A DNA stretch of 50,830 nt from positions 1 through 50,830 of the forward strand of contig CAIJKY010000015.1 of assembly GCA_903821365.1 (NCBI GenBank), written 5' to 3'. Below the pieces are notes generated by a model. It ran no database searches. It was given only the letters and a program-made list of their open reading frames with translations, and was not told the origin of the DNA. Below are positions 1,138 through 16,835 of the stretch, one piece after another. A program made the position numbers and the translations under genes. This stretch comes from an uncultured bacterium (GTDB lineage: Bacteria; Patescibacteriota; Saccharimonadia; Saccharimonadales; Saccharimonadaceae). Positions within the stretch are counted from its first letter, which is position 1. Each line of letters begins with the position of its first letter.

Positions 1138-1226
1138 AAATACATCCTCCATAAGTTTGTGCAGCGCACGTTAATACGGATGATTGTGAAGGCTTTGCGG
1201 TGTTTATGCCGTTAATAATCTAACAG

Positions 1227-1934: not shown

Positions 1935-1947
1935 TTAGGTTCTAGCA

Positions 1948-2556
1948 TTATTCGCCGACCGTACCGACTTTTACATCGCCCGCTCGCTTATAGTTAGCAA
2001 AGATAACCCCGTTCGGCGTAATCAAGCTGTCCATGAGCGTAAACGCCACCGCAGCACCACTATCATCGAATAGTCGCTTACCTGCACCGAGCGTAATAGG
2101 AAATGTCATCAGACACAGCTCGTCGACAAGATCGTGCTTGAATAATGTTTTTGCCAAGTTACCACTGCCGTGAACTTTAATATCTCCACCCTCGGAATCT
2201 TTGAGTTTTTTGATATCATCAACGGTCTTAAGAAATACGACGTTAGGCCATTCTGTTTTGTTCTCAGTCAGCGTATCTGACATGACGTACTTAGTGACAT
2301 CATTGATTCCCGGCCACATATCAGCGTGGTCTGGCCAGTAGTCGGCAAAGATGTCGAACGTTTTTCGACCCAAAAGAATGTCAGTAGATTGCATCCATTT
2401 TGCCATAAAGTCACCCGCCGCATCATCGGCTTCAGTAAAATAAGGTGCGGTCCAGCCGCCGTACTTAAAAGCGTTGGTCGCGTCTTCTTCGGGGCCACCA
2501 GGTGCTTGCATGACGCCGTCTAATGTTATGAATTCTTGGACTATTATTTTTCTCAT
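1948..2556 (-). CDS. Dihydrofolate reductase family protein (RibD C-terminal-like)
   Basis: A 202-residue member of the RibD C-terminal/DHFR-like fold, often annotated as dihydrofolate reductase family protein. Characteristic features are the N-terminal strand QEFITLDGVMQAPGG, the ILLGRKTFD segment near residue 60 and the VHGSGNLAKTL nucleotide-binding turn in the second half. It would bind NADPH and reduce an unidentified heterocycle. It is probably not the housekeeping FolA, whose sequence motifs differ. A weak AGGGA ribosome site precedes the ATG. It heads a two-gene unit with the alpha/beta hydrolase downstream. A second, more distant member of the fold is at 5164-5856. Confidence 0.88.
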   Translation of the reverse strand: MRKIIVQEFITLDGVMQAPGGPEEDATNAFKYGGWTAPYFTEADDAAGDFMAKWMQSTDILLGRKTFDIFADYWPDHADMWPGINDVTKYVMSDTLTENKTEWPNVVFLKTVDDIKKLKDSEGGDIKVHGSGNLAKTLFKHDLVDELCLMTFPITLGAGKRLFDDSGAAVAFTLMDSLITPNGVIFANYKRAGDVKVGTVGE

Positions 2557-2603
2557 GCTGTTTCCCTGCTTATCGTTTTACTACTTAGAACAGTTATGAT
2601 CGA

Positions 2604-2948
2604 TTACTCCGACCAGACAGCCAACTCACTACCATTCGGTTCAGTAAAATGAAAACGTCGACCGCCAGGAAACTCGTACACATCAGCGATAATTTTACCA
2701 CCGTTTTTCACGACTAGTTCTTTAGTTTTCTCTAAATCAGATGAATAAACGACCGTGAGCGGCATCGAGGCGCCGCCGTCCGCGTTGACACCACTGCTCG
2801 CGCCACTATCGGTGGTGTCGCTGTAGTCGTCGCCCCAGTCGTTATATTTCCAACCAAAAACACTACTGAAAAACTCTTTGGTTTGCTTGAGTTGTGCGCC
2901 AGATTTGACGGGAAACTCGATGAGGTCAATGTGATTGTGTATAGGCAT
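2604..2948 (-). CDS. VOC family (glyoxalase-like) protein
   Basis: A 114-residue vicinal-oxygen-chelate fold protein of the glyoxalase/bleomycin-resistance superfamily. The beta-alpha-beta-beta-beta pattern is recognisable from HIDLIEFPV, then FFSSVFGWKYNDWG, to the final FPGGRRFHFTEPNGSELAVW, where the late Glu is usually a metal ligand. Members detoxify or bind small electrophiles or antibiotics; the ligand here cannot be told. The ATG lies 6 bases after a TATAAT hexamer, so the transcript is probably leaderless. The gene sits just beyond a terminator that insulates it from DUF5679 upstream. Confidence 0.85.
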   Translation of the reverse strand: MPIHNHIDLIEFPVKSGAQLKQTKEFFSSVFGWKYNDWGDDYSDTTDSGASSGVNADGGASMPLTVVYSSDLEKTKELVVKNGGKIIADVYEFPGGRRFHFTEPNGSELAVWSE

Positions 2949-2954
2949 ACACTA

Positions 2955-2960
2955 ATTATA
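2955..2960 (-). promoter_or_regulatory. -10 box of a leaderless promoter
   Basis: A perfect TATAAT on the minus strand ends 6 bases before the ATG at 2948, with no Shine-Dalgarno in between. The expected start of transcription falls on or next to the start codon. No good -35 is visible, because that position lies in the neighbouring terminator hairpin. Confidence 0.55.
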
Positions 2961-2970
2961 TCAAAATAAA

Positions 2971-2994
2971 AAAGCTCCCAGATGAGGGAGCTTT
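2971..2994 (-). terminator. Intrinsic terminator after DUF5679 gene
   Basis: Nine-base arms AAAGCTCCC and GGGAGCTTT with a six-base loop. On the minus strand a run of Ts follows, so it ends the transcript of 3012-3203. On the plus strand the T run is shorter, giving at most weak bidirectional action. Confidence 0.85.
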
Positions 2995-3011
2995 TAAACA
3001 CAGTAGTGCTG

Positions 3012-3203
3012 TTAGTAGGCTTTTTTGGCGCCAGCTTCTACTGCTTTTTCAGCATTTTCTTTTGACATCATGGCACAAACAGTCGTTCCACACTTTGCGT
3101 GTTTCCCTTTAGCCATAAAACCACCTTTTTGAGTTTGGTGAATCTCTGGTGCTGTTAGTTCAACGCCTTTTTCTTTACACTTAACGCAATATCCTGTAGG
3201 CAT
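3012..3203 (-). CDS. DUF5679 zinc-ribbon-like small protein
   Basis: A 63-residue protein beginning MPTGYCVKCKEKG, the pattern of DUF5679, a small family common in Patescibacteria and other bacteria. Two N-terminal cysteines (CVKC) and two later ones could form a zinc knuckle. The C-terminal Ala/Lys-rich tail (MSKENAEKAVEAGAKKAY) resembles that of small nucleic-acid-associated proteins. The frame extends upstream to 3290, but AGGAG lies 6 bases before the ATG at 3203, which decides the start. Downstream is a clear terminator, so this is a single-gene unit. Function unknown. Confidence 0.8.
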   Translation of the reverse strand: MPTGYCVKCKEKGVELTAPEIHQTQKGGFMAKGKHAKCGTTVCAMMSKENAEKAVEAGAKKAY

Positions 3204-3306
3204 GTCTGTCTCCTCTGGTTTAATTGTTATTACATAACTTATATAGCATAACGCTTGTTTAGTATATACCCAAGATGCTTCCGTGCGCACCTTTAACCCT
3301 CAAGAT

Positions 3307-3741
3307 TTAGTGCGCGTCACTGTTTGGATCGAATTCTATCGTCCACTCAATCCCGAATTTATCCCTAAACATCGCAAAATAGGTACCCCACGGGCTATCA
3401 CTCATCGGCATTTCAACCGTACCGCCCAGCGAGAGCCCTGTAAATATTTTGTCGGCCTCCGCGCGGCTATCTGCGGTTACCGATATTTTAGACCTGTTTT
3501 CGTTCTCATTAACTGGCCCCAAACTCTCGGGGACGTCGTTGGCGATTAACGTGTTCTTACCGATCGGCAATATGATGCGCATAATTTTATCGGCATCGCT
3601 GTCTGATATGTGAAAACCAGGGCTTTTAATATCTTTGAAGCGCACAACACTCTCAAACTCGCCGCCAAAGACCGATTTGTAAAAATTAAAGGCTTCTTCG
3701 GCGTTACCGTTGAAATTGATGTAGGGGTTAATTGTTGGCAT
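3307..3741 (-). CDS. VOC family protein, PhnB-like
   Basis: A 144-residue VOC protein of the PhnB/3-demethylubiquinone-9 3-methyltransferase-like group, recognised by the N-terminal PYINFNGNAEEAFNFYKS and the C-terminal WGTYFAMFRDKFGIEWTI. Despite the family name these small proteins are not methyltransferases, and their ligand is usually unknown. An AAGGAG ribosome site lies 10 bases before the ATG. It is one of two VOC genes in this accessory block (the other is at 2604-2948) but they are not close paralogues. Confidence 0.88.
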   Translation of the reverse strand: MPTINPYINFNGNAEEAFNFYKSVFGGEFESVVRFKDIKSPGFHISDSDADKIMRIILPIGKNTLIANDVPESLGPVNENENRSKISVTADSRAEADKIFTGLSLGGTVEMPMSDSPWGTYFAMFRDKFGIEWTIEFDPNSDAH

Positions 3742-3811
3742 TTGAATTATTCTCCTTTATTGCTTGGTTTTTCATTGGTATTATTATAACAAAATGGGTT
3801 TTTAGTTACGT

Positions 3812-3846
3812 GTGGCCCTCCCGCTCGCGATGAGCAGGAGGGCCAC
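3812..3846 (-). terminator. GC-rich hairpin after the 43-codon ORF
   Basis: Perfect ten-base arms GTGGCCCTCC and GGAGGGCCAC enclose an inner four-base stem GCTC/GAGC and a short loop. It lies 23 bases past the stop of the ORF at 3870-4001. There is no T tract on either side, so it may stabilise an RNA end or stall polymerase rather than act as a classical intrinsic terminator. Confidence 0.6.
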
Positions 3847-3869
3847 GATGCCAAGTTGGGCGGTGTCTG

Positions 3870-4001
3870 CTACGGCTTGCCGTAGAGAGCCTGCTGCTGG
3901 AGCGCCCAGAGGCCGCCCCTCAGCGTGGCGCCAGCCTTCATCGCCGTCATGTCGTCCCCGCTGAGTTCAGCGAAGTTGACACTTGGTGTCAAACTGGTCA
4001 T
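3870..4001 (-). CDS. Putative 43-residue peptide, GC-rich cassette
   Basis: A short ORF starting MTSLTPSVNFAELSGDD and ending QQQALYGKP. Support is contextual: an AGGAGGGG ribosome site 2-3 bases before the ATG, a TTGACA-type promoter upstream and a strong GC-rich hairpin just past the stop. Base composition is clearly richer in GC than the flanking genes, suggesting transfer. An LRGG segment at residues 27-30 after an ELSGDDMTAM stretch is reminiscent of a double-glycine leader, which would leave a 13-residue core. No export or modification genes are adjacent, so this is only a possibility. I do not recognise a family. The ribosome site itself can fold in a CCCC/GGGG mini-hairpin. Confidence 0.5.
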   Translation of the reverse strand: MTSLTPSVNFAELSGDDMTAMKAGATLRGGLWALQQQALYGKP

Positions 4002-4039
4002 GTCCCCTCCTGGGGGTGTTGAAGTTGTCGGACGTGATT

Positions 4040-4073
4040 ATTTGATCACTATCAGTAAATATTGTCAATATTT
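4040..4073 (-). promoter_or_regulatory. Promoter with palindromic operator for the 43-codon ORF
   Basis: Minus-strand TTGACA (4063-4068) is followed after 17 bases by TCAAAT (4040-4045). The -35 box lies in the centre of a perfect palindrome, eight-base arms AAATATTG and CAATATTT about one base (4057-4073), the size and position of a repressor site. A second short palindrome, GACAG-AAA-CTGTC, is at 4082-4094. Confidence 0.5.
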
Positions 4074-4092
4074 CGTGGCTGGACAGAAACTG

Positions 4093-4629
4093 TCAATGGG
4101 CTGAAGATGATAACTGCAAAAGAAGCTTCTTAGCCGTTCTGATAACAGTGTTCGACTTGTGATTCAGTTGCACCTCAATCAATGATCGAGCACTGTCAAC
4201 CGATACATAGCCATTTTCAGCAAAATACACGAGCGTCTTCATTGTGTTCGCCGCCACGATCCAGTCTATCTCAGTCGTTGCAAGGAGACCCCCGAGCCAA
4301 AGTTTAGCCTTTACTCTTTGCTTGTCACTAAGTTCAATTTGTCGATATATCTGGGCTAAATGCCACAAGATCGACGGCTGGGTTACTGCTGCTAATTCAG
4401 ATTGAAATGTATCGATATACGGCAGTAACCATGCTGGATTCACGCGACCTATTTTCTCTACGGCATCGATGGCACGCATTCTTACCCAGGCGTTATCATC
4501 AAACACGCAGCTATAGAGTTCACTAAATCGAGTTTTATCCTCTAGGACAATCTTAATGACATCGTCTGTCTTGCCGAGTGCGTTGGAGTTGCCGCCGATT
4601 GATAGGATGTCTTTGAAGGTTTCTGTCAT
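4093..4629 (-). CDS. HEAT-repeat-like protein
   Basis: A 178-residue all-helical protein. The segment FDDNAWVRMRAIDAVEKIG is a typical HEAT/PBS-lyase-type repeat, and the remainder continues as amphipathic helix pairs (AWLLPYIDTFQSEL, VIRTAKKLLLQL). Such repeats make protein- or DNA-binding scaffolds, and related single-domain proteins include DNA alkylation repair-like folds, but no catalytic motif can be seen. No signal peptide. It lies between the two GC-rich cassettes yet has ordinary local base composition. TATACT lies 8 bases upstream of the ATG, indicating a leaderless transcript. Specific function unknown. Confidence 0.75.
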   Translation of the reverse strand: MTETFKDILSIGGNSNALGKTDDVIKIVLEDKTRFSELYSCVFDDNAWVRMRAIDAVEKIGRVNPAWLLPYIDTFQSELAAVTQPSILWHLAQIYRQIELSDKQRVKAKLWLGGLLATTEIDWIVAANTMKTLVYFAENGYVSVDSARSLIEVQLNHKSNTVIRTAKKLLLQLSSSAH

Positions 4630-4637
4630 GTTCTAAT

Positions 4638-4643
4638 AGTATA
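4638..4643 (-). promoter_or_regulatory. -10 box, leaderless promoter of HEAT-like gene
   Basis: TATACT on the minus strand, 8 bases before the ATG at 4629. The overlapping plus-strand TATAAT at 4642-4647 could serve the divergent 4697-5074 gene, so this short AT-rich stretch may be a bidirectional promoter. Confidence 0.5.
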
Positions 4644-4696
4644 TAATATCCATGTCCAGTCAGTTCGACTAGATCGACCACCTCGGAAGGATAGTA

Positions 4697-5074
4697 ATGG
4701 CCACCGATGGACCGACTCCAGCTCCACCCGACCCTGACATTTTCGCAAACGGCGAGCCCGTTGTGCTTCTGGATGCTCGCTCAAACGCCACCGAGCAGTG
4801 GGTGCAAGCCGTAGCGGAGGCAGCAGATGCACGCTTGGACTGGCACTACAGCGGCGGGGTGGCGCAAGTTCTCCATCTCGGCGACGCCGAGAGTCGTAGC
4901 CGCGTCGAGGCAGCAATCACGGCGCTGGAGGGCTCTCTGAGCGGCAGGATCCTGAAGCGACTCCCCGTGGGAGCACAAGGCCTCTATCGTAGAGGCGTCA
5001 CGGATGCACCCAAGGGTGCCATCGCTGGCTTCTACGAAGGAGGTGACAGCTCGACGTTCATCGTCGAGGACTGA
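4697..5074 (+). CDS. Hypothetical protein, GC-rich cassette
   Basis: A 125-residue protein I do not recognise. It starts MATDGPTPAPPDPDIFANGE, has a hydrophobic strand PVVLLDA, a helix ATEQWVQAVAEAADARLDWH, then a strand-helix-strand (VAQVLHLGDAESRSRVEAAI, then GRILKRLPVG), and an acidic end. There is no signal peptide or transmembrane segment; it looks like a compact alpha/beta fold. A GGAAGGA ribosome site precedes the ATG and a hairpin follows the stop. GC-rich third positions and Ala/Asp/Arg-rich composition contrast with its neighbours and recall actinobacterial genes, so recent acquisition (perhaps from a host) is plausible but unproven. Confidence 0.7.
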   Translation: MATDGPTPAPPDPDIFANGEPVVLLDARSNATEQWVQAVAEAADARLDWHYSGGVAQVLHLGDAESRSRVEAAITALEGSLSGRILKRLPVGAQGLYRRGVTDAPKGAIAGFYEGGDSSTFIVED

Positions 5075-5084
5075 CTGTATGGGG

Positions 5085-5118
5085 GGAGTCGTCGGTGACC
5101 ATTCGTTGCCGACACTCC
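5085..5118 (+). terminator. Hairpin terminator of the GC-rich 125-codon gene
   Basis: Arms GGAGT-c-GTCGG and CCGACACTCC (one bulged base) with a 13-base loop, followed by a pyrimidine/T-rich run. It lies 10 bases after the stop at 5074 and completes a self-contained cassette. Confidence 0.6.
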
Positions 5119-5163
5119 TTCCTTAAGTTTCTTCCTAATGAATATTTTGTTTTCAGTTATGTT

Positions 5164-5856
5164 CTAATCGTTCGCAAAGGCGTATTGAAGGTGTAGATAT
5201 GAGTCGCTCAGAACATCAACCTTTGTTAACTTCATTGATTGCAATATACCCAAATCCTGTACTGTTTTAAGAGAATCGCCGTCGATAAGCGTTGGCACAT
5301 TCCTGCCACCTACGATGAGCGGTGCCACCACGATTGAGAGTTTATCAACTAGTTTTTCTCTTAGTAGCAATGCATTTAGCTCCCCACCCGATTGTATAGT
5401 CAGCTTATCCGCCCCAAGCCCTTTGAGTTTAGTGAAGAGATCGGCGAAGTTAATGTTGCCATCATAATCTAAAACTTTTAGATTAATGTCGTCGATCGAG
5501 TATGCGGGATGCTGTTTATTGGTCGTTACAATATACAGCTTCTCTGATCTAGCAAGAAGATTCCGAACACCTCGCTCTGTTAAATGCGGTTTACTATCTA
5601 CGACAACAAAGCGAACAGGTATTTTACTTATGGAGTCTTTTTGCTCATTCCAGCCTACTTTGGCCATTACCCTGCCTGAGTTAAATGAGTGCCAATCTGT
5701 TTGCTCTTCAAGCGCGTAATATTGTTTTAAACCTTTTCCTAGACCGTCGATGGTTGGCAAGTCTTTGTCGAAATCTCTTTCATCATCTGCACCGGTTGAG
5801 ATCTTACCGTCAACAGACATGAGCATAAATAAAGTGGTGACTGGACGTTCATTCAT
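5164..5856 (-). CDS. RibD C-terminal-type reductase
   Basis: A 230-residue protein of the bacterial bifunctional deaminase-reductase C-terminal (RibD_C) family. It starts MNERPVTTLFMLMSVDGKIS, has the conserved GRVMAKVGW segment, a LKGLGADKLTIQSGGELNA nucleotide-binding turn, and LSIVVAPLIVGG, the hallmark of pyrimidine reductases. RibD itself reduces the ribosyl-amino-pyrimidine in riboflavin synthesis. No deaminase domain or other rib gene is nearby, so the role here may be a stand-alone NADPH-dependent reductase. The gene is preceded by a well-formed leaderless promoter (TTGTCA-N16-TATACT, 6 bases before the ATG). Confidence 0.85.
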   Translation of the reverse strand: MNERPVTTLFMLMSVDGKISTGADDERDFDKDLPTIDGLGKGLKQYYALEEQTDWHSFNSGRVMAKVGWNEQKDSISKIPVRFVVVDSKPHLTERGVRNLLARSEKLYIVTTNKQHPAYSIDDINLKVLDYDGNINFADLFTKLKGLGADKLTIQSGGELNALLLREKLVDKLSIVVAPLIVGGRNVPTLIDGDSLKTVQDLGILQSMKLTKVDVLSDSYLHLQYAFAND

Positions 5857-5862
5857 GGCTTC

Positions 5863-5890
5863 AGTATACCAAGGTGAATATTAGTGACAA
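5863..5890 (-). promoter_or_regulatory. Leaderless promoter of RibD-like gene
   Basis: Minus-strand TTGTCA (5885-5890), a 16-base spacer and TATACT (5863-5868), ending 6 bases before the ATG at 5856. No ribosome site fits between them. Confidence 0.6.
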
Positions 5891-5948
5891 GTATAAAAGA
5901 AAAGAACTCTCATTCATTCCGCGCCACGTGATTACTTAAGCCTAAATT

Positions 5949-6494
5949 TCAGACACTACGCTGTTTTAACTTCAAAGCAGTTAACGTATGAATCGATCCA
6001 TACATCTTGCCATAATCTGCCCACGAAAATTCCCCTTCAGGTCCAACATACCAAAGCACGCTTGATAGTGTCTCGTAGTTTTTGCCGAGTGCATGCAACT
6101 GATCAACCGTTAATGTATCAATGTATTTGACGTCGTCGCCAGCCTGATACTTTTGGTCACCCAGCTTTACGTGGTATACAAAAGTTTGGTGTAAAAACTG
6201 CCTACCCGCGTCATCGGTTGCCTCAACATTAAACTGTAGCAATAGGTTCAAATCTTGTACAGTAATCTTAATACCTAATTCTTCGTGAAGTTCGCGGGAT
6301 ACCGCAGCAATTATATCCTCACCCTCATCAACTCCACCGCCAAGGAGACGGGTAATGGTTGGAGGGTAAAAGCCTGGTTTTGCGCCAAGCAGAATATTAC
6401 CCCGATCATCTTCGACCGCAATTAAAACACACCGCTTGCGGTGCAGATTGCCAAATGCTTTTTTGACTATAATTTGTAAGCTAATTTCTTGCAT
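5949..6494 (-). CDS. NUDIX hydrolase
   Basis: A 181-residue NUDIX protein. The box GX5EX7REUXEEXGU is complete at residues 53-75 (GGVDEGE ... RELHEELGI), so the metal-binding glutamates are present and the enzyme should hydrolyse a nucleoside-diphosphate-linked substrate. The long C-terminal part (FVYHVKLGDQKYQAGDD and beyond) probably shapes substrate choice. The frame runs on to a TTG at 6521, but the first ATG at 6494 (MQEISLQ) is preferred; neither has a clear ribosome site. Substrate unknown; a house-cleaning role is usual for this family. Confidence 0.87.
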   Translation of the reverse strand: MQEISLQIIVKKAFGNLHRKRCVLIAVEDDRGNILLGAKPGFYPPTITRLLGGGVDEGEDIIAAVSRELHEELGIKITVQDLNLLLQFNVEATDDAGRQFLHQTFVYHVKLGDQKYQAGDDVKYIDTLTVDQLHALGKNYETLSSVLWYVGPEGEFSWADYGKMYGSIHTLTALKLKQRSV

Positions 6495-6589
6495 GAATAA
6501 AATGGAAACATTGCCGTTCAATTAAAATATTCTAGCAAACTCCATTGAGCTAAGCGATAGTTCAGCGATACCCTTACGGATATATCTGA

Positions 6590-6595
6590 TATTAT
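6590..6595 (+). promoter_or_regulatory. -10 box, leaderless promoter of DUF2142 gene
   Basis: TATTAT ends 8 bases before the ATG at 6604 and no Shine-Dalgarno lies between. The -35 region is not convincing. Confidence 0.45.
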
Positions 6596-6603
6596 TCTGA
6601 TAT

Positions 6604-8019
6604 ATGCAATATTATCTCGAACGTCTTCAATTCGCTATTAAGGCTATTTTGCGTAACCCTGCTACTTTCTTTCTTTTTACCGCCGCAGTCTTCGGAATCG
6701 TTATTTGTTTCAGACTTCCCCCACTGAATGGTACTGATGAATTCACCCATTTTCCGAGGGTCTATCAAATTACAGACGGCACGCTATGGGAGCAGAAAAT
6801 GCCCCACCAACAATATGGTGGACAGATACCTTTTAATGTTAGCAGCATGGTAGATGACTATCGTGACCTATCTCGAAAAAGCAACCCACAGGAATATGCT
6901 TCCCGCACTAAACAACTGAACGCTTATTATAGCTCCCAGAGTAAACCAGGTGAGCCTGTTGGTGCGATCTATACATCCGTAGCAATATACCCACCTTGGT
7001 CATACGCACCTAGCGCAATAGGCTTAGTAGTAGCCAAGGTTCTCAATACTCCACTTATCTGGTACGTCTACCTAGCACGCTTAAGCAGTTTATTAGTTTG
7101 GATAGTATTAGTTTGGTGGGCAATCAGATTGCTCCCCTCTGGAAAATGGTTTTTAACTGTCCTAGCTCTGCTGCCTACATCTCTGTCCCAGGCTACTACA
7201 ATCGGCGGCGACGGTCTTTTAACCGGGCTAAGTTGGTTAACTATCGCATTAGTAATAGCTGTCTTCGCCAATAAAGTAAACCTCAATTGGATATGGTTAA
7301 CACTGTTAGGGCTAGCCAGTTTGTATCTTGCTGTCATCAAAGCTGGTTATTGGCTTATTAGTCTACTACCTTTAATAATTCCCGCCTACTTTTTTAAAAG
7401 TCGTAAAGTTGCAGTTGCCTGGAAAACCGTCCTAGCCGCTCTCGTTATAGTCAGCAGCATATTTTTCGCTTACCACAATATGACTACGGCAAGATACGCA
7501 ACATTAACACCTCGACTTGGAGTGTACATAGATAGTAATTTGCAACAACAATATGTCCTGCATCATCCCTTGCTGTTCCTAGTTAGAGCATTCGGACAAT
7601 TCTTTACTAAGAGTTATGACACAATTTATCTTGGGATAGTAGGTATTCTCACCAATAGATTAATATACCTGCCGTTGCTAGTCATTGGCTTGCTTTATGT
7701 AACCCTTTTCTTAGCGCTCAAACAGAGCAAGCGTTTACCAGTTTTAGCTAAGCACCGCCAATTACTGCTGTTGACGTTTTTGTCAGCCTTTGTTGGAACT
7801 TGTATCTTTATAAGCTTGGCTTTTTATATAGGTAACACGCAAGTAGGCAGCGATACTATTTTTGGAATTTATGGTAGATATTATCTGCCAATATTGCCTC
7901 TACTACTCATCATACCCCTGGCAAAGCGTAAAGGAATCACTGCTGAGCATGCTCTAGTAGTACTGCCTATTTTAAGTGTAATAGGGTTGGTTTATACAGC
8001 TATAGCTATTAGCCAATAG
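6604..8019 (+). CDS. DUF2142 family membrane protein
   Basis: A 471-residue integral membrane protein with about ten hydrophobic segments, starting with one at residues 20-37. The motif RLPPLNGTDEFTHFPRVYQI after the first segment corresponds to the DUF2142 signature (PPDEPAHF in many members). DUF2142 proteins resemble polyprenol-linked glycosyltransferases of the GT-C fold, and the Asp-Glu after the first helix is where GT-C enzymes place catalytic acid residues. A role in cell-surface glycan assembly is therefore an inference. The stop codon is directly abutted by the decayed recombinase sequence at 8020, so a rearrangement breakpoint lies at its 3' end. Confidence 0.85.
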   Translation: MQYYLERLQFAIKAILRNPATFFLFTAAVFGIVICFRLPPLNGTDEFTHFPRVYQITDGTLWEQKMPHQQYGGQIPFNVSSMVDDYRDLSRKSNPQEYASRTKQLNAYYSSQSKPGEPVGAIYTSVAIYPPWSYAPSAIGLVVAKVLNTPLIWYVYLARLSSLLVWIVLVWWAIRLLPSGKWFLTVLALLPTSLSQATTIGGDGLLTGLSWLTIALVIAVFANKVNLNWIWLTLLGLASLYLAVIKAGYWLISLLPLIIPAYFFKSRKVAVAWKTVLAALVIVSSIFFAYHNMTTARYATLTPRLGVYIDSNLQQQYVLHHPLLFLVRAFGQFFTKSYDTIYLGIVGILTNRLIYLPLLVIGLLYVTLFLALKQSKRLPVLAKHRQLLLLTFLSAFVGTCIFISLAFYIGNTQVGSDTIFGIYGRYYLPILPLLLIIPLAKRKGITAEHALVVLPILSVIGLVYTAIAISQ

Positions 8020-8239
8020 CCGAGATATTGCAACTGAACCAGAGAAGAAACAGCAGAAACTGAATGGCCATCTAAAGTTGCTACCGCATACTGACAAGCA
8101 GTTCCAAGTCACTACTTCTTGGCCGCTAGACCTCGCACAGAGAGAGAAACAGTTATTTAATGAGAGTACTGGCGGACTAAGATAGAAGCCGCTTGAATAT
8201 CTACTTTCAAATTCTTCTTCAGCCATATTGAGACAAAGA

Positions 8240-8257
8240 AAAAGAGCCTTTCGGCTC
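8240..8257 (-). terminator. Terminator hairpin downstream of broken tRNA 3' end
   Basis: Arms GAGCC and GGCTC around TTTC, followed on the minus strand by TTTTTC. The homologous hairpin follows tRNA-Gly at 21628-21641. Here it can end the DUF4396 transcript from the right. Confidence 0.65.
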
Positions 8258-8271
8258 ATAATTCAGATATT

Positions 8272-8311
8272 TGGTGCGGAGCTACAGAATCTACTCAAAC
8301 TTTTCACCGCA
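8272..8311 (-). other. Broken tRNA-like 3' end (possible old attachment site)
   Basis: On the minus strand this reads to a CCGCACCA 3' end like that of tRNA-Gly at 21656-21731, and TGCGG/CCGCA can pair as a partial acceptor stem. The middle is too short and mismatched to be a tRNA. Its position, directly beyond the decayed recombinase tail, matches that of tRNA-Gly beyond the intact one. Confidence 0.4.
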
Positions 8312-8382
8312 CTGATTGATGGTAGCTTAAGTAGCATACCTACCATTCCTTCGGTACCTGATACTAAAAATACAATTATCTA

Positions 8383-8835
8383 CTAGGCGGAGTGACCGCC
8401 GTGACCATGTCCGATACCAAAGCGTGTCATCATTAAGCGGTTGACTGGCACAGTCACTACGAATGCCACTGCCAAAGACAGAGCCATACTCCACCAAAAT
8501 AGCCAAGTGCTTACACGCGCGCTCATAGCGCCCGGTATGAGGTACTCAAGCGTGTTGTCTATGATCTCCATGCTGATGATAGAGACTGTGTCGGTGCGAA
8601 GGGCTGTTTTTCGCGCATCATCTGGAGGCATGCCCATTTTGCGAGCGCCCCGATATGTAAGACCATAGCCAAAACAAAATGCAAGCACTACAGCTAGCAG
8701 TGTTTGGTATATATTTGCCCAACCAAATTGAGCGCCAATGGCACTACCAAGCACTTCACCTATGCCGCAACCGAGTAGACAGTGGAGCGTATGTTCTACG
8801 GCGTGGTTCGTGGTGACATCAAATGGCAATCGCAT
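8383..8835 (-). CDS. DUF4396 membrane protein
   Basis: A membrane protein of about 150 residues with four hydrophobic segments. The opening HAVEHTLHCLLGCGIGEVLG has the His/Cys-rich pattern of DUF4396, whose members often neighbour metal-transport or copper genes, and the C-terminus ends in GHGHGGHS, also metal-binding in look. The function of the family is not established. The frame reaches an ATG at 8844, but that ATG falls inside a CATAAT -10-like hexamer, so the ATG at 8835 (MRLPFD) is favoured. It is divergent from nhaA with about 70 bases between. Confidence 0.8.
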   Translation of the reverse strand: MRLPFDVTTNHAVEHTLHCLLGCGIGEVLGSAIGAQFGWANIYQTLLAVVLAFCFGYGLTYRGARKMGMPPDDARKTALRTDTVSIISMEIIDNTLEYLIPGAMSARVSTWLFWWSMALSLAVAFVVTVPVNRLMMTRFGIGHGHGGHSA

Positions 8836-8842
8836 ACTTACC

Positions 8843-8848
8843 ATTATG
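8843..8848 (-). promoter_or_regulatory. Possible -10 box of DUF4396 gene
   Basis: CATAAT on the minus strand, 7 bases before the preferred ATG at 8835. It fits the leaderless arrangement seen elsewhere, but it overlaps the alternative start at 8844. Confidence 0.35.
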
Positions 8849-8896
8849 AACTGCTTTCTGATAAGCGCTAGCTAATAAGTCGCTGTTCACATAAGA

Positions 8897-8902
8897 TATA
8901 GA
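8897..8902 (+). promoter_or_regulatory. Possible -10 box of nhaA
   Basis: TATAGA ends 6 bases before the GTG start at 8909. Weak match, no obvious -35; listed because spacing agrees with the other leaderless genes. Confidence 0.35.
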
Positions 8903-8908
8903 TAAGGT

Positions 8909-10165
8909 GTGCTGGGAAGTCTGGTCGGCAATACTATTAAAGACGATCGGACATACTTGAAAGACAAACTCGCACAAATCACTAAAAAGCTTCATCCTGC
9001 ACGGCTTTCAGAGCTTGCAACATATTTGCTTAAAGATGAGGCGATTAGTGGCAAACTGATTATCGGCGCTACGGTACTCGCCCTGCTTGCCGCAAATACA
9101 GCCCTAAGTTCGTTGTATAACGGCTTTCTACATACTAACCTCACCATTGGTCTCGGCAGTTGGGCTTTATCAAAAGACCTTCAGCACTGGATAGACGAAG
9201 GGCTAATGGCGATCTTCTTTTTAGTGGTTGGTCTTGAACTGAAACGCGAGCTAGTAAAAGGTGAACTACGCAAAATTAAAACAGCCACCCTACCGTTCGC
9301 TGCGGCAATAGGTGGAATGATAGTTCCGGCATTAATATACATGGCTCTGAATAGAGGAAGCGATAGCTTTAGCGGCTGGGCGATACCAATGGCAACCGAT
9401 ATAGCATTTGCTGTCGGCATCTTAGCCCTACTAGGTAAGAGAGTGCCGTCTTCCATTCGCCTGTTCTTGCTGACATTGGCAATAGTGGACGACATAGGCG
9501 CAGTCATTGTAATAGCCGTTTTCTATAGCACAGGTATTAATCTATATATGTTGGCGATCGCCGCCACTATAGCTGCGCTGATCCTGATACTGCAAAAACT
9601 TAAATTGCTCAACATGTCAGTATTTGTTGTAGCGGCAATTGGAATTTGGCTGGCCATAAACGCGTCAGGTGTTCATCCGAGTATAGCCGGAGCCATTATT
9701 GGTTTACTTGCACCCCTAACTGCATGGTCATTAAACAAAGAACCGATAGCTGAACGCCTAGAGCGATTTACTATCCCCGTATCTACGTTGCTTGTTGTGC
9801 CGCTGTTCGCCTTTGCTAATACGGGAATAGTCTTATCGCTGAGCAGCTTCAAGGATACGTCGGCACTTCCAATTGCAGGAGGAATTATCCTAGGATTAGT
9901 TGTTGGCAAGATCTTGGGCATTTTGGGCGCGTCGTGGCTAGTCATAAAACTCAAATATGCCGAACTGCCTATAGGTGCTAACTGGAGCCACATTGTTGGC
10001 GTTGGGTTCTTGGCAGGGATCGGTTTCACTGTTGCCATATTCGTGACTGATCTTGCTTTTACTGCAGAAGACTATGTAACAATCGCTAAAATAAGTATCT
10101 TTGCAGCTTCTGTTATTAGTGCGCTCATTGGCTTAATTGTTCTACAACGCAGTAAAACTACATAA
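8909..10165 (+). CDS. nhaA: Na+/H+ antiporter NhaA
   Basis: A 418-residue sodium/proton antiporter of the NhaA family, exporting Na+ in exchange for protons across the cytoplasmic membrane. Family hallmarks are the segment WIDEGLMAIFFLVVGLELKRE and the paired transport aspartates D194-D195 in LAIVDDIGAVIVIA (equivalent to D163/D164 of the E. coli protein). About eleven further hydrophobic segments follow. It starts at GTG with an N-terminal cytoplasmic extension of about 45 residues before DEAISGKL. A terminator follows directly. It sits between recombinase debris on the left and an integrative element on the right, so it may itself be cargo of an earlier insertion. Confidence 0.95.
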   Translation: MLGSLVGNTIKDDRTYLKDKLAQITKKLHPARLSELATYLLKDEAISGKLIIGATVLALLAANTALSSLYNGFLHTNLTIGLGSWALSKDLQHWIDEGLMAIFFLVVGLELKRELVKGELRKIKTATLPFAAAIGGMIVPALIYMALNRGSDSFSGWAIPMATDIAFAVGILALLGKRVPSSIRLFLLTLAIVDDIGAVIVIAVFYSTGINLYMLAIAATIAALILILQKLKLLNMSVFVVAAIGIWLAINASGVHPSIAGAIIGLLAPLTAWSLNKEPIAERLERFTIPVSTLLVVPLFAFANTGIVLSLSSFKDTSALPIAGGIILGLVVGKILGILGASWLVIKLKYAELPIGANWSHIVGVGFLAGIGFTVAIFVTDLAFTAEDYVTIAKISIFAASVISALIGLIVLQRSKTT

Positions 10166-10169
10166 AGAA

Positions 10170-10190
10170 AAACACGCATTGAGCGTGTTT
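10170..10190 (+). terminator. Terminator of nhaA
   Basis: Arms AAACACGC and GCGTGTTT with a five-base loop, five bases after the nhaA stop. The T run is only three bases. Confidence 0.7.
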
Positions 10191-10469
10191 GACAAAATAA
10201 CTAAAATGGTGCAAGATAGTTGACGCATTACAAACATCAGCTATCGGTGCTACAAACGATTATAAACTAAAACATCTGGCTGAGGTATTCCAATTATCAG
10301 GCAACTTGCTTGATGCTTAGTTGGAAGTTCAAACGAGCTGTTGTATACCGCAAAGATAGGGGGGGGTAGTCGCCCTCTAACTCTGTTATAGGTACTCCGC
10401 CTATGTAATACCTAAAATGTGGGGGTACTATCTGCCAAGCGTTTTCTGGATACTAATTAATCCTGACTA
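10191..10469. other. Gene-free stretch, possible left end of the integrative element
   Basis: No intact gene. One frame from about 10224 reads LKHLAEVFQLSGNLLDA before a stop and may be gene debris, but has no start or family match. A run of eight G lies at 10359-10366. CTCTAACTC at 10375-10383 repeats nine bases of the tRNA-Gly T-arm (21673-21681), with GGGTAG before it echoing GGTTAG in the tRNA, making it a candidate left attachment site. Confidence 0.35.
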
Positions 10470-11432
10470 TTATCTCGTTTCTGCCTGTTCTCGTGCTATT
10501 TGGTCTTTGATAATCTTATCTGCTCGTCCGTTAGGAAGTTTTGCAAAGTTAAGTAGCAAGCTTTGAGGCATACGGTCAACGATTACCTTACCCTCATATT
10601 CAGGTATTGGACTTGCCGATATTAACATCTTGTCTGCTCGACGTAACTCACGATTATTTATTTCACGCACAAAGTTATAATCAATTTCTTTGTAGCCAGT
10701 TATTCCGCACCTGTTACCAAACAAGGCAATTTTGGGAGTAAGTGGCACAACACACTCAGCTGTCTTGCTCCATTGGTTTCGCCCAAAAGGCGAATTATCT
10801 TTTGTAAATTCTGTTAGCGTAACAGGATGGTCAGAAGTAATAAACTCTATGTCTACGTAACTAGCTGGTGTAAGGAAACAAAAGTCCAATGGTCCCCACT
10901 TGTTTACCTCAAAAGATACAGCCATAGCCTGAGCAAAGAATACTTCTTTCATTGCTTCCATCTGTTTAGTCCAACGGTCAGCTGCTTCGGGAGCATTATG
11001 TCCTAAAGACAATGCACGTCCACTCTCATTTAACTTATCTAAAAAGCTATTTAGGTGCTCCTGTTGCATAATAGTGCGGTTCTCTAAAGCACTTATATAT
11101 AGGGCAATCTTCTCGTGGTCCGCTTCGCTAATCCGTTTACCTTGTTTGATTTTCTTTTCTAATACCTCGCCATAGTCGCCCTCAATTTGAGCTAACACAT
11201 CTTCAATTGCGTTAGTTGGCAGAATAGGAGTTTCATATAGATTATTCTTTACTGCAATATTTACGGGTGCTATGTCTTTCTGCTCGGCAGTATGCAAAAA
11301 ATCTGCTCTACCCTTATCGCCAAACCAGTAAGTTTTGACCTTGCCGTTGATAGTAAAGTTTTGCAAGTATGAAGTGCGAGGCAGCCAGTGCTGTCTGCGA
11401 GTTACCTGCTTTTTGCCAGCTTTCTCAGCCAT
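10470..11432 (-). CDS. DUF4238 family protein
   Basis: A 320-residue protein with the DUF4238 hallmarks: N-terminal RRQHWLPRTSYLQNFTING, a central helical region (LAQIEGDYGEVLEKKIKQG) and the later FITSDHPV segment. DUF4238 proteins are scattered, often in mobile or defence-rich regions; their biochemical activity is not known to me. No signal peptide or membrane segment. It is the last gene of the nine-gene operon, with 8 bases of overlap with the hydrolase upstream, so it is probably translated by coupling. No terminator is visible after it. Confidence 0.85.
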   Translation of the reverse strand: MAEKAGKKQVTRRQHWLPRTSYLQNFTINGKVKTYWFGDKGRADFLHTAEQKDIAPVNIAVKNNLYETPILPTNAIEDVLAQIEGDYGEVLEKKIKQGKRISEADHEKIALYISALENRTIMQQEHLNSFLDKLNESGRALSLGHNAPEAADRWTKQMEAMKEVFFAQAMAVSFEVNKWGPLDFCFLTPASYVDIEFITSDHPVTLTEFTKDNSPFGRNQWSKTAECVVPLTPKIALFGNRCGITGYKEIDYNFVREINNRELRRADKMLISASPIPEYEGKVIVDRMPQSLLLNFAKLPNGRADKIIKDQIAREQAETR

Positions 11433-12087
11433 TCATTAACTCATTTTTCACGTAATCAACCAAGGGTTGTCGTGCATCATCTGTAAAATCGTGATTACCG
11501 CCTAACTGCACTAAACCAATGCGTTCATCGGTCTTGTCAAAGTTTGACATACCAAGTACTTCATCTTCGTTTGCAATTAGGAACTTGACCTTAGCTAAGT
11601 CAGGCAATCTGTTGTATATGCGTATAACATCAAGTCCTTTTAAGCTCTGCCAGTACGAGGCAGGAATTATAGTTGTACTGCCGTCTCGTCTCGGTATCTT
11701 TGACTGACCATCTAGGTCAATCACGCTTCCATCACGGCTGCCGAAGAAGTTGATTAATCGTCCTACATCAACATTATCAGGCGGTGCAAGACAAAGTACT
11801 TGTCGCACGTTCTGAGGTTTCGCAAGAGCAGCTACTAAGCACCCTTGTGAATGTGTCACTAAATCTACCATCGCATCGCCGTCAATCTTATCAAGCTGTT
11901 CTTTGAGCAGCTGAACCTGCCGCTGCAACGGACTGACCGTAAGTGTGTTTGATTGTTCGTCAATCAGGTTGTAATCAAATAGGATATGCTCAGCTTTGGG
12001 CAGTGCATTCGCAATATCAGTAAATAAACCCCTGTCATCTTTGCGGACACCAAAACCGTGCGAATAAATAACTACGTGCTTTGTCAT
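11425..12087 (-). CDS. Alpha/beta hydrolase-like protein
   Basis: A 220-residue serine-hydrolase-fold protein. The opening strand KHVVIYSHGFGVRKDDRG and the elbow THSQGCLVAAL place Ser at the nucleophile position; GGNHDF near the end supplies the expected catalytic His, and IANEDEVLG is the likely acid strand. Short hydrolases of this kind are frequent in Patescibacteria; the substrate cannot be told. It starts within the upstream unknown gene (4-base ATGA overlap) and overlaps the DUF4238 gene by 8 bases, so the three are made together. Confidence 0.82.
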   Translation of the reverse strand: MTKHVVIYSHGFGVRKDDRGLFTDIANALPKAEHILFDYNLIDEQSNTLTVSPLQRQVQLLKEQLDKIDGDAMVDLVTHSQGCLVAALAKPQNVRQVLCLAPPDNVDVGRLINFFGSRDGSVIDLDGQSKIPRRDGSTTIIPASYWQSLKGLDVIRIYNRLPDLAKVKFLIANEDEVLGMSNFDKTDERIGLVQLGGNHDFTDDARQPLVDYVKNELMNG

Positions 12088-12629
12088 AGTTTTGTTTCTT
12101 CTGATAGCTTTATTCGTACTTTTTCGGTCATTGTAGTGGTGCTGACATAGCCAAGAGCATCAACATCTGGGTTATAAAGTTCAATCATATCTAGGTCGTT
12201 ACGTGGAAATACCCTTGCACACTTGATTTGTTTACCGTCAAGGAGCGATTGTTTTAGTTCGTCATATTGCTGTTGCTCAAGGTAAAAATCAACATCGCCA
12301 ACGTGGTGTCGGTAAGGGTCTGGTTTACGAATATACAAGTGCGTGTAAGTTGTTTCTGGTACGCCGTCCTGCTCAGTAATGATAATCGGCTCGTGTAGAT
12401 TAAAGTACTTTTGATTTGGGTCATCAGAAGGTTCGGTCAATTCTTTGCGGATAGCCACAAGTCGCTCATACTCCTCGTCATAATGACAGAAGATACCCAT
12501 ATTACCTGCATTGGGTAGATATGAACCAAACGACTGTTTACAAAGCTCATAGCAAGCAAAGTGCGTGTACTTGATAGCTTCAAGAAGGCTTGTTTGGTCT
12601 TGGATTGGGCTAAATCGGTATAGTTTCAT
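12084..12629 (-). CDS. Hypothetical protein in cargo operon
   Basis: A 181-residue protein I do not recognise. It opens MKLYRFSPIQDQTSLLEAIK, contains ACYELCKQSFGSYLPNAGN and a run rich in aromatic and charged residues (THLYIRKPDPYRHHVGDVDF), and ends in a helical, Lys-rich tail. It looks like a soluble alpha/beta protein with no signal peptide. Stop and start codons overlap by 4 bases with both neighbours (deaminase upstream, hydrolase downstream), arguing that it works with them. The compact layout and the even codon use make it a real gene; its function is open. Confidence 0.75.
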   Translation of the reverse strand: MKLYRFSPIQDQTSLLEAIKYTHFACYELCKQSFGSYLPNAGNMGIFCHYDEEYERLVAIRKELTEPSDDPNQKYFNLHEPIIITEQDGVPETTYTHLYIRKPDPYRHHVGDVDFYLEQQQYDELKQSLLDGKQIKCARVFPRNDLDMIELYNPDVDALGYVSTTTMTEKVRIKLSEETKL

Positions 12630-13120
12630 TGCTTCTGCCAGCCCTTATAGTCTTTTAGTAGTTGTTTGCACTCCTCACGCATTACACCGCCAACAACTTC
12701 AATGTTGCCTCTGCTAGAATCAGCTAGCTTTCTTGAGGTCTTAACTAGCTTCTCAGAACTATAATCATCGTACTCGTAGTCATTGCCAACTACATCGGCT
12801 GCGTATGCACCAAATACTATTCTGTCTACGCCAGCCCACAATGCCGCACCAGTACACATAGAGCAAGGCTCTAGCGTTCCGTATAAGGTACAACTTTGCA
12901 TATCCATCAAATCGTTTTCTTTAGCACAGTTACGAATGCAATCAATCTCGCCGTGATTTGAAGGGTCTCGCTTTCCGTATGGATTACTCCAACCCTTAGC
13001 AATAACCTTACCGTCTTTGACCATTATCGCCCCGATAGCAGCACCGCCAGATGCCTCGGCATCTTTAGCTGACTGGATTGCAAGTTTCATAAAGTCTTCG
13101 TCGGTCATATTTCTACTCAA
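12626..13120 (-). CDS. Cytidine/guanine deaminase-like zinc enzyme
   Basis: A 164-residue member of the CDA/tRNA-adenosine/guanine deaminase superfamily. The zinc site is complete: H56 and E58 in NHGEID, and C86/C89 in PCSMC. Most relatives have HAE or HPE, so HGE is slightly unusual. LYGTLEPCSMC followed by ALWAGVDRIVFGA is closest in look to guanine deaminase/TadA-type enzymes. It would hydrolytically deaminate a base, nucleoside or pterin-like compound. It is the fifth product of the cargo operon with 4-base overlaps on both sides. Substrate unknown. Confidence 0.87.
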   Translation of the reverse strand: MSRNMTDEDFMKLAIQSAKDAEASGGAAIGAIMVKDGKVIAKGWSNPYGKRDPSNHGEIDCIRNCAKENDLMDMQSCTLYGTLEPCSMCTGAALWAGVDRIVFGAYAADVVGNDYEYDDYSSEKLVKTSRKLADSSRGNIEVVGGVMREECKQLLKDYKGWQKQ

Positions 13121-14064
13121 TCCATCACGTTTTCTGGCTTACCATCAATAGTAGCGATGATATTACCGACCCAAATCTGCCGAAGTAAGTTCAAAGAGTG
13201 GTCAGTAAACCACGCCTGAGAAGGAAATGCTATTACATTTTGGTGCTTTGCAAGTGGCGTACCTGCGACAGCACTGTTTGAACCTGCATATCCGCCGACT
13301 TTACCAGAGTTAAGGGCTTCAAGTAGTGCATCATTATCAACCAATTTTCCGTCAGCTTCATTGATAATGTATTGACCTTCTTTTGCGTGTGCTAGTAGTT
13401 TTGCGTCAAATAATCCGATTGTTTCATCAGCCGTCTTAAGGTGCAGTGATAGATAATCAGATTGCCGTAATACTTCTTCCAAGGAAAGTTGCGTTACGTT
13501 AGGTATATTCTTCTCTTTTCTGTCCCAGGCGATAATTTTTACCCCAAAACCTTGTAATAATTCTGCGAACTTTGTACCAATATGACCCAGCCCAACAATG
13601 CCAACAGTTTTACCTGTAAGTACGTCATTCTTATACGGCTTTTCTTCTTTGCCAGTAATACGGTCTTGGAATACCAGGTTCAACTTTTTGATAAGAAATA
13701 GTAGAGCCGTCAGACTAAACTCAGCGACAGAAACGGTTGAGTAATTCGGGGTGTTCATTAGCAGTATACCGTGCTTCTTGGCAGCTTCTGGTGCAGCCCA
13801 GCTCATACCAGTGATGTCAGTAGAAATCGCTTTAAGTGGTAACCTACGCTCCCTTATCTGTTTATAGAAATTGTCGGTCAGCTCATCAACAACGTCACGA
13901 TTGAGCATTAAGTAATCACTTTTGGCGATTATATCTAAAAGTTCGTCCTCGCTAACCTTATCTCGCTCAATATATTGAACATCAGATTTTTTACTTAACA
14001 ACTGCCAATCATCCGAGGTAATCATATCTGGAATAGTGACAATAGTTGTTATCAGTTTGTTCAT
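13117..14064 (-). CDS. D-2-hydroxyacid dehydrogenase homologue lacking catalytic Arg and His
   Basis: A 315-residue protein with the D-isomer-specific 2-hydroxyacid dehydrogenase fold. The Rossmann motif GLGHIG is at residues 158-163 and the substrate-domain helices are present. Two catalytic positions are changed. Where the family has INTARG, this protein has INEADG, putting Asp238 in place of the catalytic Arg. Where it has TPH, this one has FPS, putting Ser282 in place of the catalytic His. The NAD site looks intact, so it may bind dinucleotide but do other chemistry, or act as a sensor or scaffold. It overlaps both neighbours by 4 bases in the cargo operon. Confidence 0.85.
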   Translation of the reverse strand: MNKLITTIVTIPDMITSDDWQLLSKKSDVQYIERDKVSEDELLDIIAKSDYLMLNRDVVDELTDNFYKQIRERRLPLKAISTDITGMSWAAPEAAKKHGILLMNTPNYSTVSVAEFSLTALLFLIKKLNLVFQDRITGKEEKPYKNDVLTGKTVGIVGLGHIGTKFAELLQGFGVKIIAWDRKEKNIPNVTQLSLEEVLRQSDYLSLHLKTADETIGLFDAKLLAHAKEGQYIINEADGKLVDNDALLEALNSGKVGGYAGSNSAVAGTPLAKHQNVIAFPSQAWFTDHSLNLLRQIWVGNIIATIDGKPENVMD

Positions 14065-14390
14065 TTTTGCTCCTTAAACCATTCTTCTGGTCTGTTAAAT
14101 TGCCAAGGGTCACGAGTATTAGACTTGTGTACTTTGATGTCTTTCCAAACTCCGCCAACAATGTAAGGTTCTTCATCTAGCCACTCTTGAAGTTCCTTTT
14201 CAGAAGGGAAGCTCACGACATACATTGAGCCTTTCATAGACCCATCGTCGTTTAGAAGTGCAGCCCCGTACCAAAGATTGCCACTATCAAGTAGTTTATC
14301 GCCCATAGCAATATGATTTTGTCGCACTGCTTGCCTACGAGCAGGTGCTTCACTATCCGTTCCATCAAGACCAATGACTACAAACTGCAT
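14061..14390 (-). CDS. YciI-like protein
   Basis: A 109-residue YciI-family protein (dimeric alpha+beta barrel). Visible features are the first strand MQFVVIGLDG, the helix with RRQAVRQNHIAMGDKLLDSG containing the conserved His, and YVVSFPSEKELQEWLDEEPY, where the family places its conserved Asp and Pro. Some members act as small dehydrochlorinase- or muconolactone-isomerase-like enzymes; most are uncharacterised. It ends in the start of the 2-hydroxyacid dehydrogenase homologue (4-base overlap) and starts at the stop of the aldehyde dehydrogenase. Confidence 0.87.
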   Translation of the reverse strand: MQFVVIGLDGTDSEAPARRQAVRQNHIAMGDKLLDSGNLWYGAALLNDDGSMKGSMYVVSFPSEKELQEWLDEEPYIVGGVWKDIKVHKSNTRDPWQFNRPEEWFKEQK

Positions 14391-15760
14391 TACTTGGCTC
14401 TCGCAATCACTTTAATTTGAGTAACGTCATCAAAGCCAAACTGTGCGTGTTCACGACCACCGCCAGACATCTTGTATCCTGTAAACGGATTGCAAGTATT
14501 GATGTAGCTCAAAGTATTCTGGCTAACCATTCCGCTTTCTAGCTGATGGGCAACTCGTATAAAGCGTTCGTTATCTGCTGTAAAGATATACGCACCTAAG
14601 CCATATTTAGTATCGTTAGCCTTTTCTATGGCTTCTTCTTCGCTAGTAAACGTAACTATTGGCAGTACAGGTCCAAATACTTCTTCCTGCCATACTCGCA
14701 TATCGTTTGTGATGTTGGTTAGCAGTGTCGGCTCGTAATAAGCACCCTCTAAGCCTTCGGGCTTCTTGCCGCCAATAAGAACCTTAGCACCCTTACTTAC
14801 TGCATCAGCAACTTGTTCTTCAAGCAGTTTCAACTGTCGTTCAGCAACAAGTGGTCCAAAGTCAGTTTGACTATCGCTAGCATCGCCAATCTTTTTCTCT
14901 TTAATTAAGTTTGTTAGCTTGGCAGTAACTTCATCCACTTTGCCCTCGTGGACAATTAAACGCTTTAAGGCATCGCACATCTGACCGCAAGCCATAAAAC
15001 GAGCTGTAAAGATTGTGCCAGCAACTTCTTCAATATCAGCATCTTCAAAAATAATGCCAGGTGCTGAACCGCCAAGTTCAAGACAGGTTGGCAACAAGCG
15101 ACTAGCCACAGCCTGTCTAATCTTTATTCCAGTAGCACTGCTGCCCGTAAAACACACTAGGTTTACATCTTGATTTACCAGTTGCTCACCAACAGAGCCA
15201 TCGCCATATACCTCGTTAAATACACCCTCTGGCAAAACGCTGTTCACAATTTCTTCTATGAGCTTGCCACATAGCTGCGTCTCTTCGGAGTGCTTAAAGA
15301 CAACTGTATTACCAGCAATAAGGTTTTGCCCACATTGCCATACCCAGTTTGCAAACGGGAAGTTCCAAGGAACGATACAAGCCACAACGCCGAATGGCTC
15401 TTTGAATACCTCGTGTCGCTCATCATCGTTTTCTAAAGTAACGACTGATTTTAAATGTTTTTCGCCAGTATCAAGGTAAGAATTAAGATAGTCTAAGCCA
15501 AAATCAAAGTCTTCCAGTGCTTCCTTAATAGGCATACCCATTTCTTCGGCTTCTAGTTTGGCAAATCGCTCTTTATTCTCAGCGAACTTTGCTGATACTT
15601 TGCGAAGTAACTCTATACGCCCCGCAACACCTAATTCTCGCCAAGCCTTTTTTGCAGCGTGAGCGGCTTTAGCTTTGGCTTTTATGTCTTCTGGCGTAGA
15701 CGCTTCAAGCTCATCAATGGCTTGGTTAGTAGATGGGTTGATGGATTGTATTTTGCTCAT
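14390..15760 (-). CDS. NAD(P)-dependent aldehyde dehydrogenase
   Basis: A 456-residue aldehyde dehydrogenase, resembling the succinate-semialdehyde dehydrogenase group. Catalytic residues are present: Glu228 in CLELGG and Cys262 in ACGQMCDALKR. The cofactor segment IVPWNFPFANWVWQ and the FTGSSATG turn are typical, and EEVFGPVLPI closes the family pattern. It oxidises an aldehyde to its acid. It lies second among the enzymes of the cargo operon, directly after the aldo/keto reductase with stop and start sharing one base, suggesting that both handle related carbonyl compounds. Confidence 0.93.
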   Translation of the reverse strand: MSKIQSINPSTNQAIDELEASTPEDIKAKAKAAHAAKKAWRELGVAGRIELLRKVSAKFAENKERFAKLEAEEMGMPIKEALEDFDFGLDYLNSYLDTGEKHLKSVVTLENDDERHEVFKEPFGVVACIVPWNFPFANWVWQCGQNLIAGNTVVFKHSEETQLCGKLIEEIVNSVLPEGVFNEVYGDGSVGEQLVNQDVNLVCFTGSSATGIKIRQAVASRLLPTCLELGGSAPGIIFEDADIEEVAGTIFTARFMACGQMCDALKRLIVHEGKVDEVTAKLTNLIKEKKIGDASDSQTDFGPLVAERQLKLLEEQVADAVSKGAKVLIGGKKPEGLEGAYYEPTLLTNITNDMRVWQEEVFGPVLPIVTFTSEEEAIEKANDTKYGLGAYIFTADNERFIRVAHQLESGMVSQNTLSYINTCNPFTGYKMSGGGREHAQFGFDDVTQIKVIARAK

Positions 15761-16803: not shown

Positions 16804-16835
16804 CACTACTTACCAGTGTTGTGATGAGAGATGTG

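Follow-up and report, generated by a model that had tools for sequence, protein, structure and literature searches.

Sequence comparison suggests that the window (the whole 50,830-nucleotide stretch analysed, from contig CAIJKY010000015.1 of an uncultured Saccharimonadaceae bacterium) holds at least three units inserted successively at the end of a tRNA-Gly gene, and that a decayed recombinase gene end at 8007-8271, hereafter the scar, marks the right end of the oldest of them. The model that we propose for this stack, and in which we place considerable confidence, is as follows. tRNA-Gly(GCC) would be the common attachment site of several families of large serine recombinases in these Candidatus Saccharibacteria, and we infer that crossover takes place in the TGGTGC motif at the tRNA 3′ end. 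The recombinase gene would span attP, so that integration removes roughly its last 35-45 codons together with the stop codon; the cut-off codons would remain at the left end of the element, and the frame at the right end would continue into the antisense tRNA. Right ends would each carry the tRNA terminator just before the core. A later element would then re-insert at the tRNA, giving a head-to-tail stack in which the newest element adjoins the tRNA. In the window, the scar would be what decay has left of the oldest unit's right end, the younger units being 8272-10206 and 10207-21655, and its unit had probably already lost the catalytic part of the recombinase at a breakpoint in codon 393.

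The scar (plus strand) corresponds to the 3′ end of a family-1 large serine recombinase gene, approximately codons 393-496. That is, it carries only the C-terminal part of such an enzyme, and it is a remnant because stops and a deletion disrupt the reading frame. The preliminary description had matched 8020-8319 by eye to the 3′ end of the intact recombinase gene further along the window, and pairwise alignment bears this out: local alignment with 21300-21760 gave a score of 67, whereas none of 500 dinucleotide shuffles exceeded 33; with looser scoring and wider segments the score was 57, and the best of 200 shuffles reached 26. A tblastn search with the intact recombinase recovered 8024-8212 (codons 400-462, 56%) and 8215-8295 (codons 478-504) at an E-value of about 2e-16. 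The similarity begins at 8007, rather than at 8020, and the 108 bases preceding 8007 show only shuffle-level similarity to any family-1 recombinase.

The position of this 5′ edge is shared with other genomes. Truncated family-1 copies in 10 relatives (G169, G175, G202, G225, G122, G168, G151, G370, G400 and G126) all start at the identical base, the first of an ATTAC in codon 393, from which 312 bases (313 in G400) lead to the core. Upstream of the ATTAC, these copies are 27-40% identical to full genes over 60 bases, compared with 85% among full genes. In a tree the truncated copies are interleaved with full genes, with 8 label changes (7-9 in bootstraps), of which the starred branches alone require only 2. 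For other truncated copies (e.g. G090 and G294) a start at the breakpoint is not clear. The scar starts within a base or two of the codon-393 breakpoint, a match that holds only to a few bases, and it is too decayed to prove that truncation preceded insertion. Since its start coincides with the breakpoint of the 10 truncated relatives, the scar is, on this sequence evidence, more likely to be the end of a recombinase-less cassette than a decayed whole recombinase. Of the older serine recombinase scar first described, the recombinase 3′ end stands, whereas a whole recombinase as its source is doubtful. The main alternative would be that the scar is the rest of a complete older family-1 element, from which a later deletion took codons 1-392 and fused the DUF2142 gene to what remained. 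Complete tandem elements do exist in relatives, and the pseudogene-like decay of the 3′ part, which has spared the last 52 bases, would fit such a history. A random deletion, however, would not be expected to end at 8007, which coincides with the breakpoint of the 10 truncated copies elsewhere, and we consider this alternative rather unlikely.

The cassette-end reading would place the scar among units of a kind found in the relatives. Eight of the 10 copies that start at the ATTAC end units with a family-1 left end, the cargo of which, assigned by eye, is a copper ATPase, a CsoR-like regulator, a fluoride channel, or a cation diffusion facilitator with an ArsR-like regulator. G151 and G370, assigned to different families, share one practically identical unit, with an indel of about 133 bases and with unrelated flanks on both sides. 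Because it is near-identical in such unrelated surroundings, this unit has been moved, or copied, in its entirety. At the indel, an origin-like G run and the ATTAC are brought together; aberrant rolling-circle termination would be our guess as to how they were joined. It is conceivable, and we put it forward tentatively, that these units form a cassette system, in which a family-1 recombinase acting in trans inserts at tRNA-Gly DNA linked to a constant module (the 312 bases that run from the codon-393 ATTAC to the core, and the displaced tail with its roughly 110 bases), and in which cassettes arise repeatedly by the precise joining of a site, often an origin-like G run, to the ATTAC inside the recombinase gene, so that the element would convert itself into gene cassettes without a recombinase. 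The scar would then be the end of one such cassette.

The target gene, tRNA-Gly(GCC) at 21656-21731 on the minus strand, is intact. The core TGGTGC, which is the opposite-strand reading of the tRNA 3′ end GCACCA, lies in it at 21656-21661 (core 3) and is repeated on the plus strand at 8272-8277 (core 1) and 10207-10212 (core 2), a repeat of only 6 bases that is convincing only together with the conserved tails. The units that these cores separate have the same orientation, as is also the case in G016, G328, G410, G071 and G175. The newest element (10207-21655, 11.4 kb) has its own left end, a displaced family-1 recombinase C-terminal tail (WCKIVDALQTSAI...LLDA plus stop; 10207-10320, plus strand), followed by a G-run hairpin motif (10355-10375, plus strand) that is conserved in full family-1 elements and is origin-like by appearance only. 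Its cargo (10470-16596, minus strand) includes DUF4238, identified by Pfam, and a hydrolase, a deaminase, dehydrogenases and an aldo/keto reductase, all assigned by eye. The conserved family-1 backbone (16597-20141) consists of an HTH/MerR-like gene, a 422-aa gene, small genes and a 397-aa rep-like gene, and then comes the intact family-1 large serine recombinase (20168-21754, plus strand), with Pfam Resolvase and Recombinase domains (PF00239, E 1.4e-14; PF07508, E 3.3e-11) and with the core and antisense tRNA as its final 33 codons. The 397-aa protein (18948-20141) is conserved in family 1 and shows, by eye, an HIH motif; it may be the replication initiator for the nearby G-run hairpin. A Pfam search with it gave no match, and AlphaFold prediction for the rep-like protein and the tail-bearing C-terminal fragment was of low confidence (pLDDT 39-40). 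A sequence search for a solved structure returned none, and a search of a plasmid collection gave distant recombinases only, the best two being 27-28% identical.

Between the scar and the newest element lies a separate unit of 1.9 kb (8272-10206), which has the left end of a family-2 recombinase and no recombinase gene. Immediately 3′ of the core at 8272 the window encodes GAELQNLLKLFTALIDGSLSSIPTIPSVPDTKNTIIY plus a stop, within a displaced family-2 C-terminal tail (GAELQNLLKLF...TIIY plus stop; 8273-8386, plus strand), and the cargo (8383-10165) consists of a DUF4396 gene (8383-8844, minus strand) and an NhaA-type Na+/H+ antiporter gene (8909-10165, plus strand). As far as recombinase genes go, the middle unit may be a CIME (cis-mobilizable element), a unit that keeps both att ends and has lost its recombination and transfer genes; the left end of the scar's unit is missing. 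Having two units here changes the initial picture, in which 8.27 kb and 21.65 kb were the bounds of one insertion: the newest element starts at 10207, and 8272-10206 is a different unit. An element boundary that we had placed at 8270 was dropped after the family-1 left end turned up at 10207. The two recombinase ends had also been described as running into the same tRNA 3′-end sequence; 10 bases are indeed shared exactly (TTTGGTGCGG), but what follows on the scar side is the left end of another element and no longer tRNA. The stretch 8278-8300 had been considered as a decayed tRNA-Gly fragment and was ruled out as such, being family-2 coding sequence.

The displaced tails link the left ends to their recombinases. 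Three families of recombinases occur at tRNA-Gly(GCC), namely family 1 (G046, G083, G076, G016, G099 and named Candidatus Saccharibacteria records), family 2 (G018, G114, G077, G057, G051, G048 and G049) and family 3 (G001), and they enter the tRNA in three different reading frames. Family-1 left ends (WCKIVDAFQTSAI..., with the window copy at 10207) are in the family-1 frame and family-3 left ends (LVQQVGKSLHLI...) in the family-3 frame. Relatives of the family-2 left end were found in 11 of 121 genomes, always on the strand of the tRNA-Gly match and 0.5-24 kb away from it; the tail frame is that of family 2, and a family-2 recombinase is present at the tRNA in 7 of the 11. Among single-base codon differences, the synonymous fraction for tails in the matching frame was 0.59, 0.69 and 0.65, compared with 0.22, 0.24 and 0.20 expected, and stops were present in 2 of 66 copies in the matching frame versus 61 of 66 in each other frame. 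Moreover, rejoining each recombinase to its own left end gave one uniform C-terminus in all 17 elements examined (17/17), and integrated recombinase ends differ according to the host tRNA. Because the tails are conserved and coding in the frame of their own family, it is simplest to suppose that the recombinase gene contains attP, and that insertion would separate the gene from its tail and swap the C-terminus; we infer this from the integrated forms, through the frame match and the coding constraint on the tails. Neither circular nor empty-site forms were found, the viral contigs being searched by exact pattern and by protein. Some elements (G099, G151 and G370) have a plus-strand terminator-like hairpin after the tail. 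It seems improbable that the tails are instead independent small genes or conserved host sequence beside tRNA-Gly. This would suit the fact that a whole element separates them from the recombinase, and that tails occur without a matching recombinase in G035, G032 and, for family 2, the window; but the tails start within the core and share no start codon of their own, the three families match their recombinases in frame, and from genome to genome the host sequence left of the core is unrelated.

Several observations on related sequences were made along the way. At the family-2 left ends of G035, G049, G057 and G077, sense-strand-like stretches of the tRNA-Gly 3′ half (e.g. GAGGCCAGGAGTTAG) lie inverted to the left of the core. 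G000, the genome to which the window belongs, carries a second large serine recombinase (contig C10, 9-1604; L004, L085) that likewise ends inside a tRNA gene, tRNA-Lys(CTT), and tRNA targeting by such enzymes is therefore not restricted to tRNA-Gly. Related recombinase ends were also seen at tRNA-Asn (L096), tRNA-Gln (L094), tRNA-Trp (G136) and tRNA-Asp (G112). On another G000 contig (C6, 43772-44044; L003, L084) a C-terminal recombinase remnant, 28% identical to family 1, starts at ATTAC after unrelated sequence, and so does a remnant at 6527 in L096.

All three cores (8272, 10207 and 21656) have on their left an intrinsic-terminator-like structure for the tRNA strand: a hairpin and T run at 8232-8257 (minus strand, for a transcript from the tRNA side), another at the right end of the middle unit (10164-10190, minus strand), and the tRNA-Gly terminator itself within the recombinase 3′ end (21620-21643, minus strand). 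The terminator hairpin that had been noted in the scar is therefore present, but it acts on the minus strand and resembles the tRNA-Gly terminator. It lies in the last 52 bases of the scar (8228-8279), which share 85% identity with 21612-21663 and 94-96% with the corresponding bases of several relatives. The scar scores 126 with the window's own recombinase and 236 with the best recombinase of another species. That is, its closest relatives are other species' recombinases, not the window copy, and it is therefore not a local duplicate. Copying from the window's own recombinase end, by local duplication or gene conversion, would agree with the presence of both in one window and in the same orientation, but in view of these scores, and of a scar terminator whose version is that of other species, we regard it as very improbable. 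Least credible of all is that the homology is limited to the last 50 bases, which would then be a conserved flank and terminator downstream of tRNA-Gly and owe nothing to a recombinase. A tRNA needs a terminator, and conservation is far higher in the last 52 bases than in the remainder; but codon-level similarity extends about 190 bases farther upstream, 8008-8212 by itself scores 155 when no shuffle exceeds 33, and the flanks at other tRNA-Gly genes differ from the scar's.

To the left, the scar adjoins a DUF2142 gene (PF09913; 6604-8019, plus strand), whose last codons enter the scar, so that it is this gene that neighbours the right end of the oldest unit. No left end of this unit was found in 1-8000 (the contig starts at 1), and it would be either off the contig or lost. 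The 0-8 kb region may well be island cargo, and perhaps the body of the oldest unit, because homologues of three of its genes (those at 3012, 3307 and 4093) occur in the tRNA-Gly islands of G122, G001 and G127. The tRNA-Leu and tRNA-Cys genes that flank the island in many relatives are on another contig of this genome, with no island traces, and are therefore of no help in placing the left boundary.

Successive integration at one tRNA-Gly site, as proposed from the start, is supported by the relatives, where recombinases as well as left ends occur in tandem at tRNA-Gly(GCC) and comparable remnants lie there too. Many of the relatives are draft metagenome assemblies, though G016, G071 and G035 each consist of one contig. 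The tandem arrangement, of recombinases or of left ends, was found in G016, G328, G410, G071, G175, G169, G172 and G267. In G016 and G410 a family-3-like recombinase is followed by a complete family-1 element, and in G328 family 2 is followed by family 1. G071 has, in a single contig, two different recombinases about 24 kb apart, with a family-2 left end directly after the first and with the second ending in the tRNA, and three to six left ends lie within 12 kb in G267, G287, G172 and G169. A conjugation-like block, recognised by eye (VirB4-like and VirB6-like), was also observed in G071 (oriented locus 21800-29700; L079, L101); because it sits between the two tRNA-Gly recombinases, some of these elements may be conjugative.

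A recombinase gene that loses its own tail on insertion has been reported, among the open-access papers searched, for only a few other mobile elements. Here, one tRNA 3′ end serves three bacterial families of large serine recombinases, each of which seems to exchange its C-terminus when it inserts. Island left ends in Saccharibacteria are precisely marked by the displaced tail, so that a stack of islands can be resolved into single units with their cargo, which includes metal and cation transport, and the exact recurrent truncation raises the question of how recombinase-less cassettes form and move in these small genomes. A 2014 paper stated that serine integrases were not known to target tRNA genes (PMC4383910). 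A close parallel is with the ssrA islands of Dehalococcoides (PMC3146451). There, as here, islands lie in tandem behind a single RNA gene, a large serine recombinase gene (DsiB) overlaps the att site with its 3′ end and lacks its own stop, and some islands have no integration module; the authors suggested that the DsiB gene may be fully functional only as a circle or beside an island with its 3′ fragment. The target there is ssrA, with a DsiA/DsiB module, whereas here it is the CCA end of tRNA-Gly, with no smaller partner recombinase identified; moreover, unlike in Dehalococcoides, the displaced 3′ fragment has here been traced, in frame, for each of three families, and truncation recurs at one point. 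Units that lack a recombinase but retain both att ends, and that share their target with complete elements lying in tandem with them, are known as CIMEs alongside ICEs and IMEs (PMC5704250). CIMEs are regarded as decayed, whereas many of the units here share one exact truncation base, and one is nearly unchanged in two families with unrelated flanks. An att site within an integrase gene that is split on integration also characterises the archaeal suicidal integrases of the SSV1, pTN3 and pT26-2 types, and a 2021 review considered self-disrupting integrases exclusively archaeal (PMC8371274). Those are tyrosine recombinases, in which the catalytic domain is separated, whereas the enzymes described here have serine recombinase domains, the catalytic domain stays, and only the C-terminal tail is displaced and exchanged. 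Myxococcus phage Mx8 is a bacterial self-splitting case, with attP inside the integrase gene and a new 3′ end on integration (PMC6070905); Mx8 is one phage, whereas here three recombinase families with Resolvase and Recombinase domains are stacked at one tRNA.
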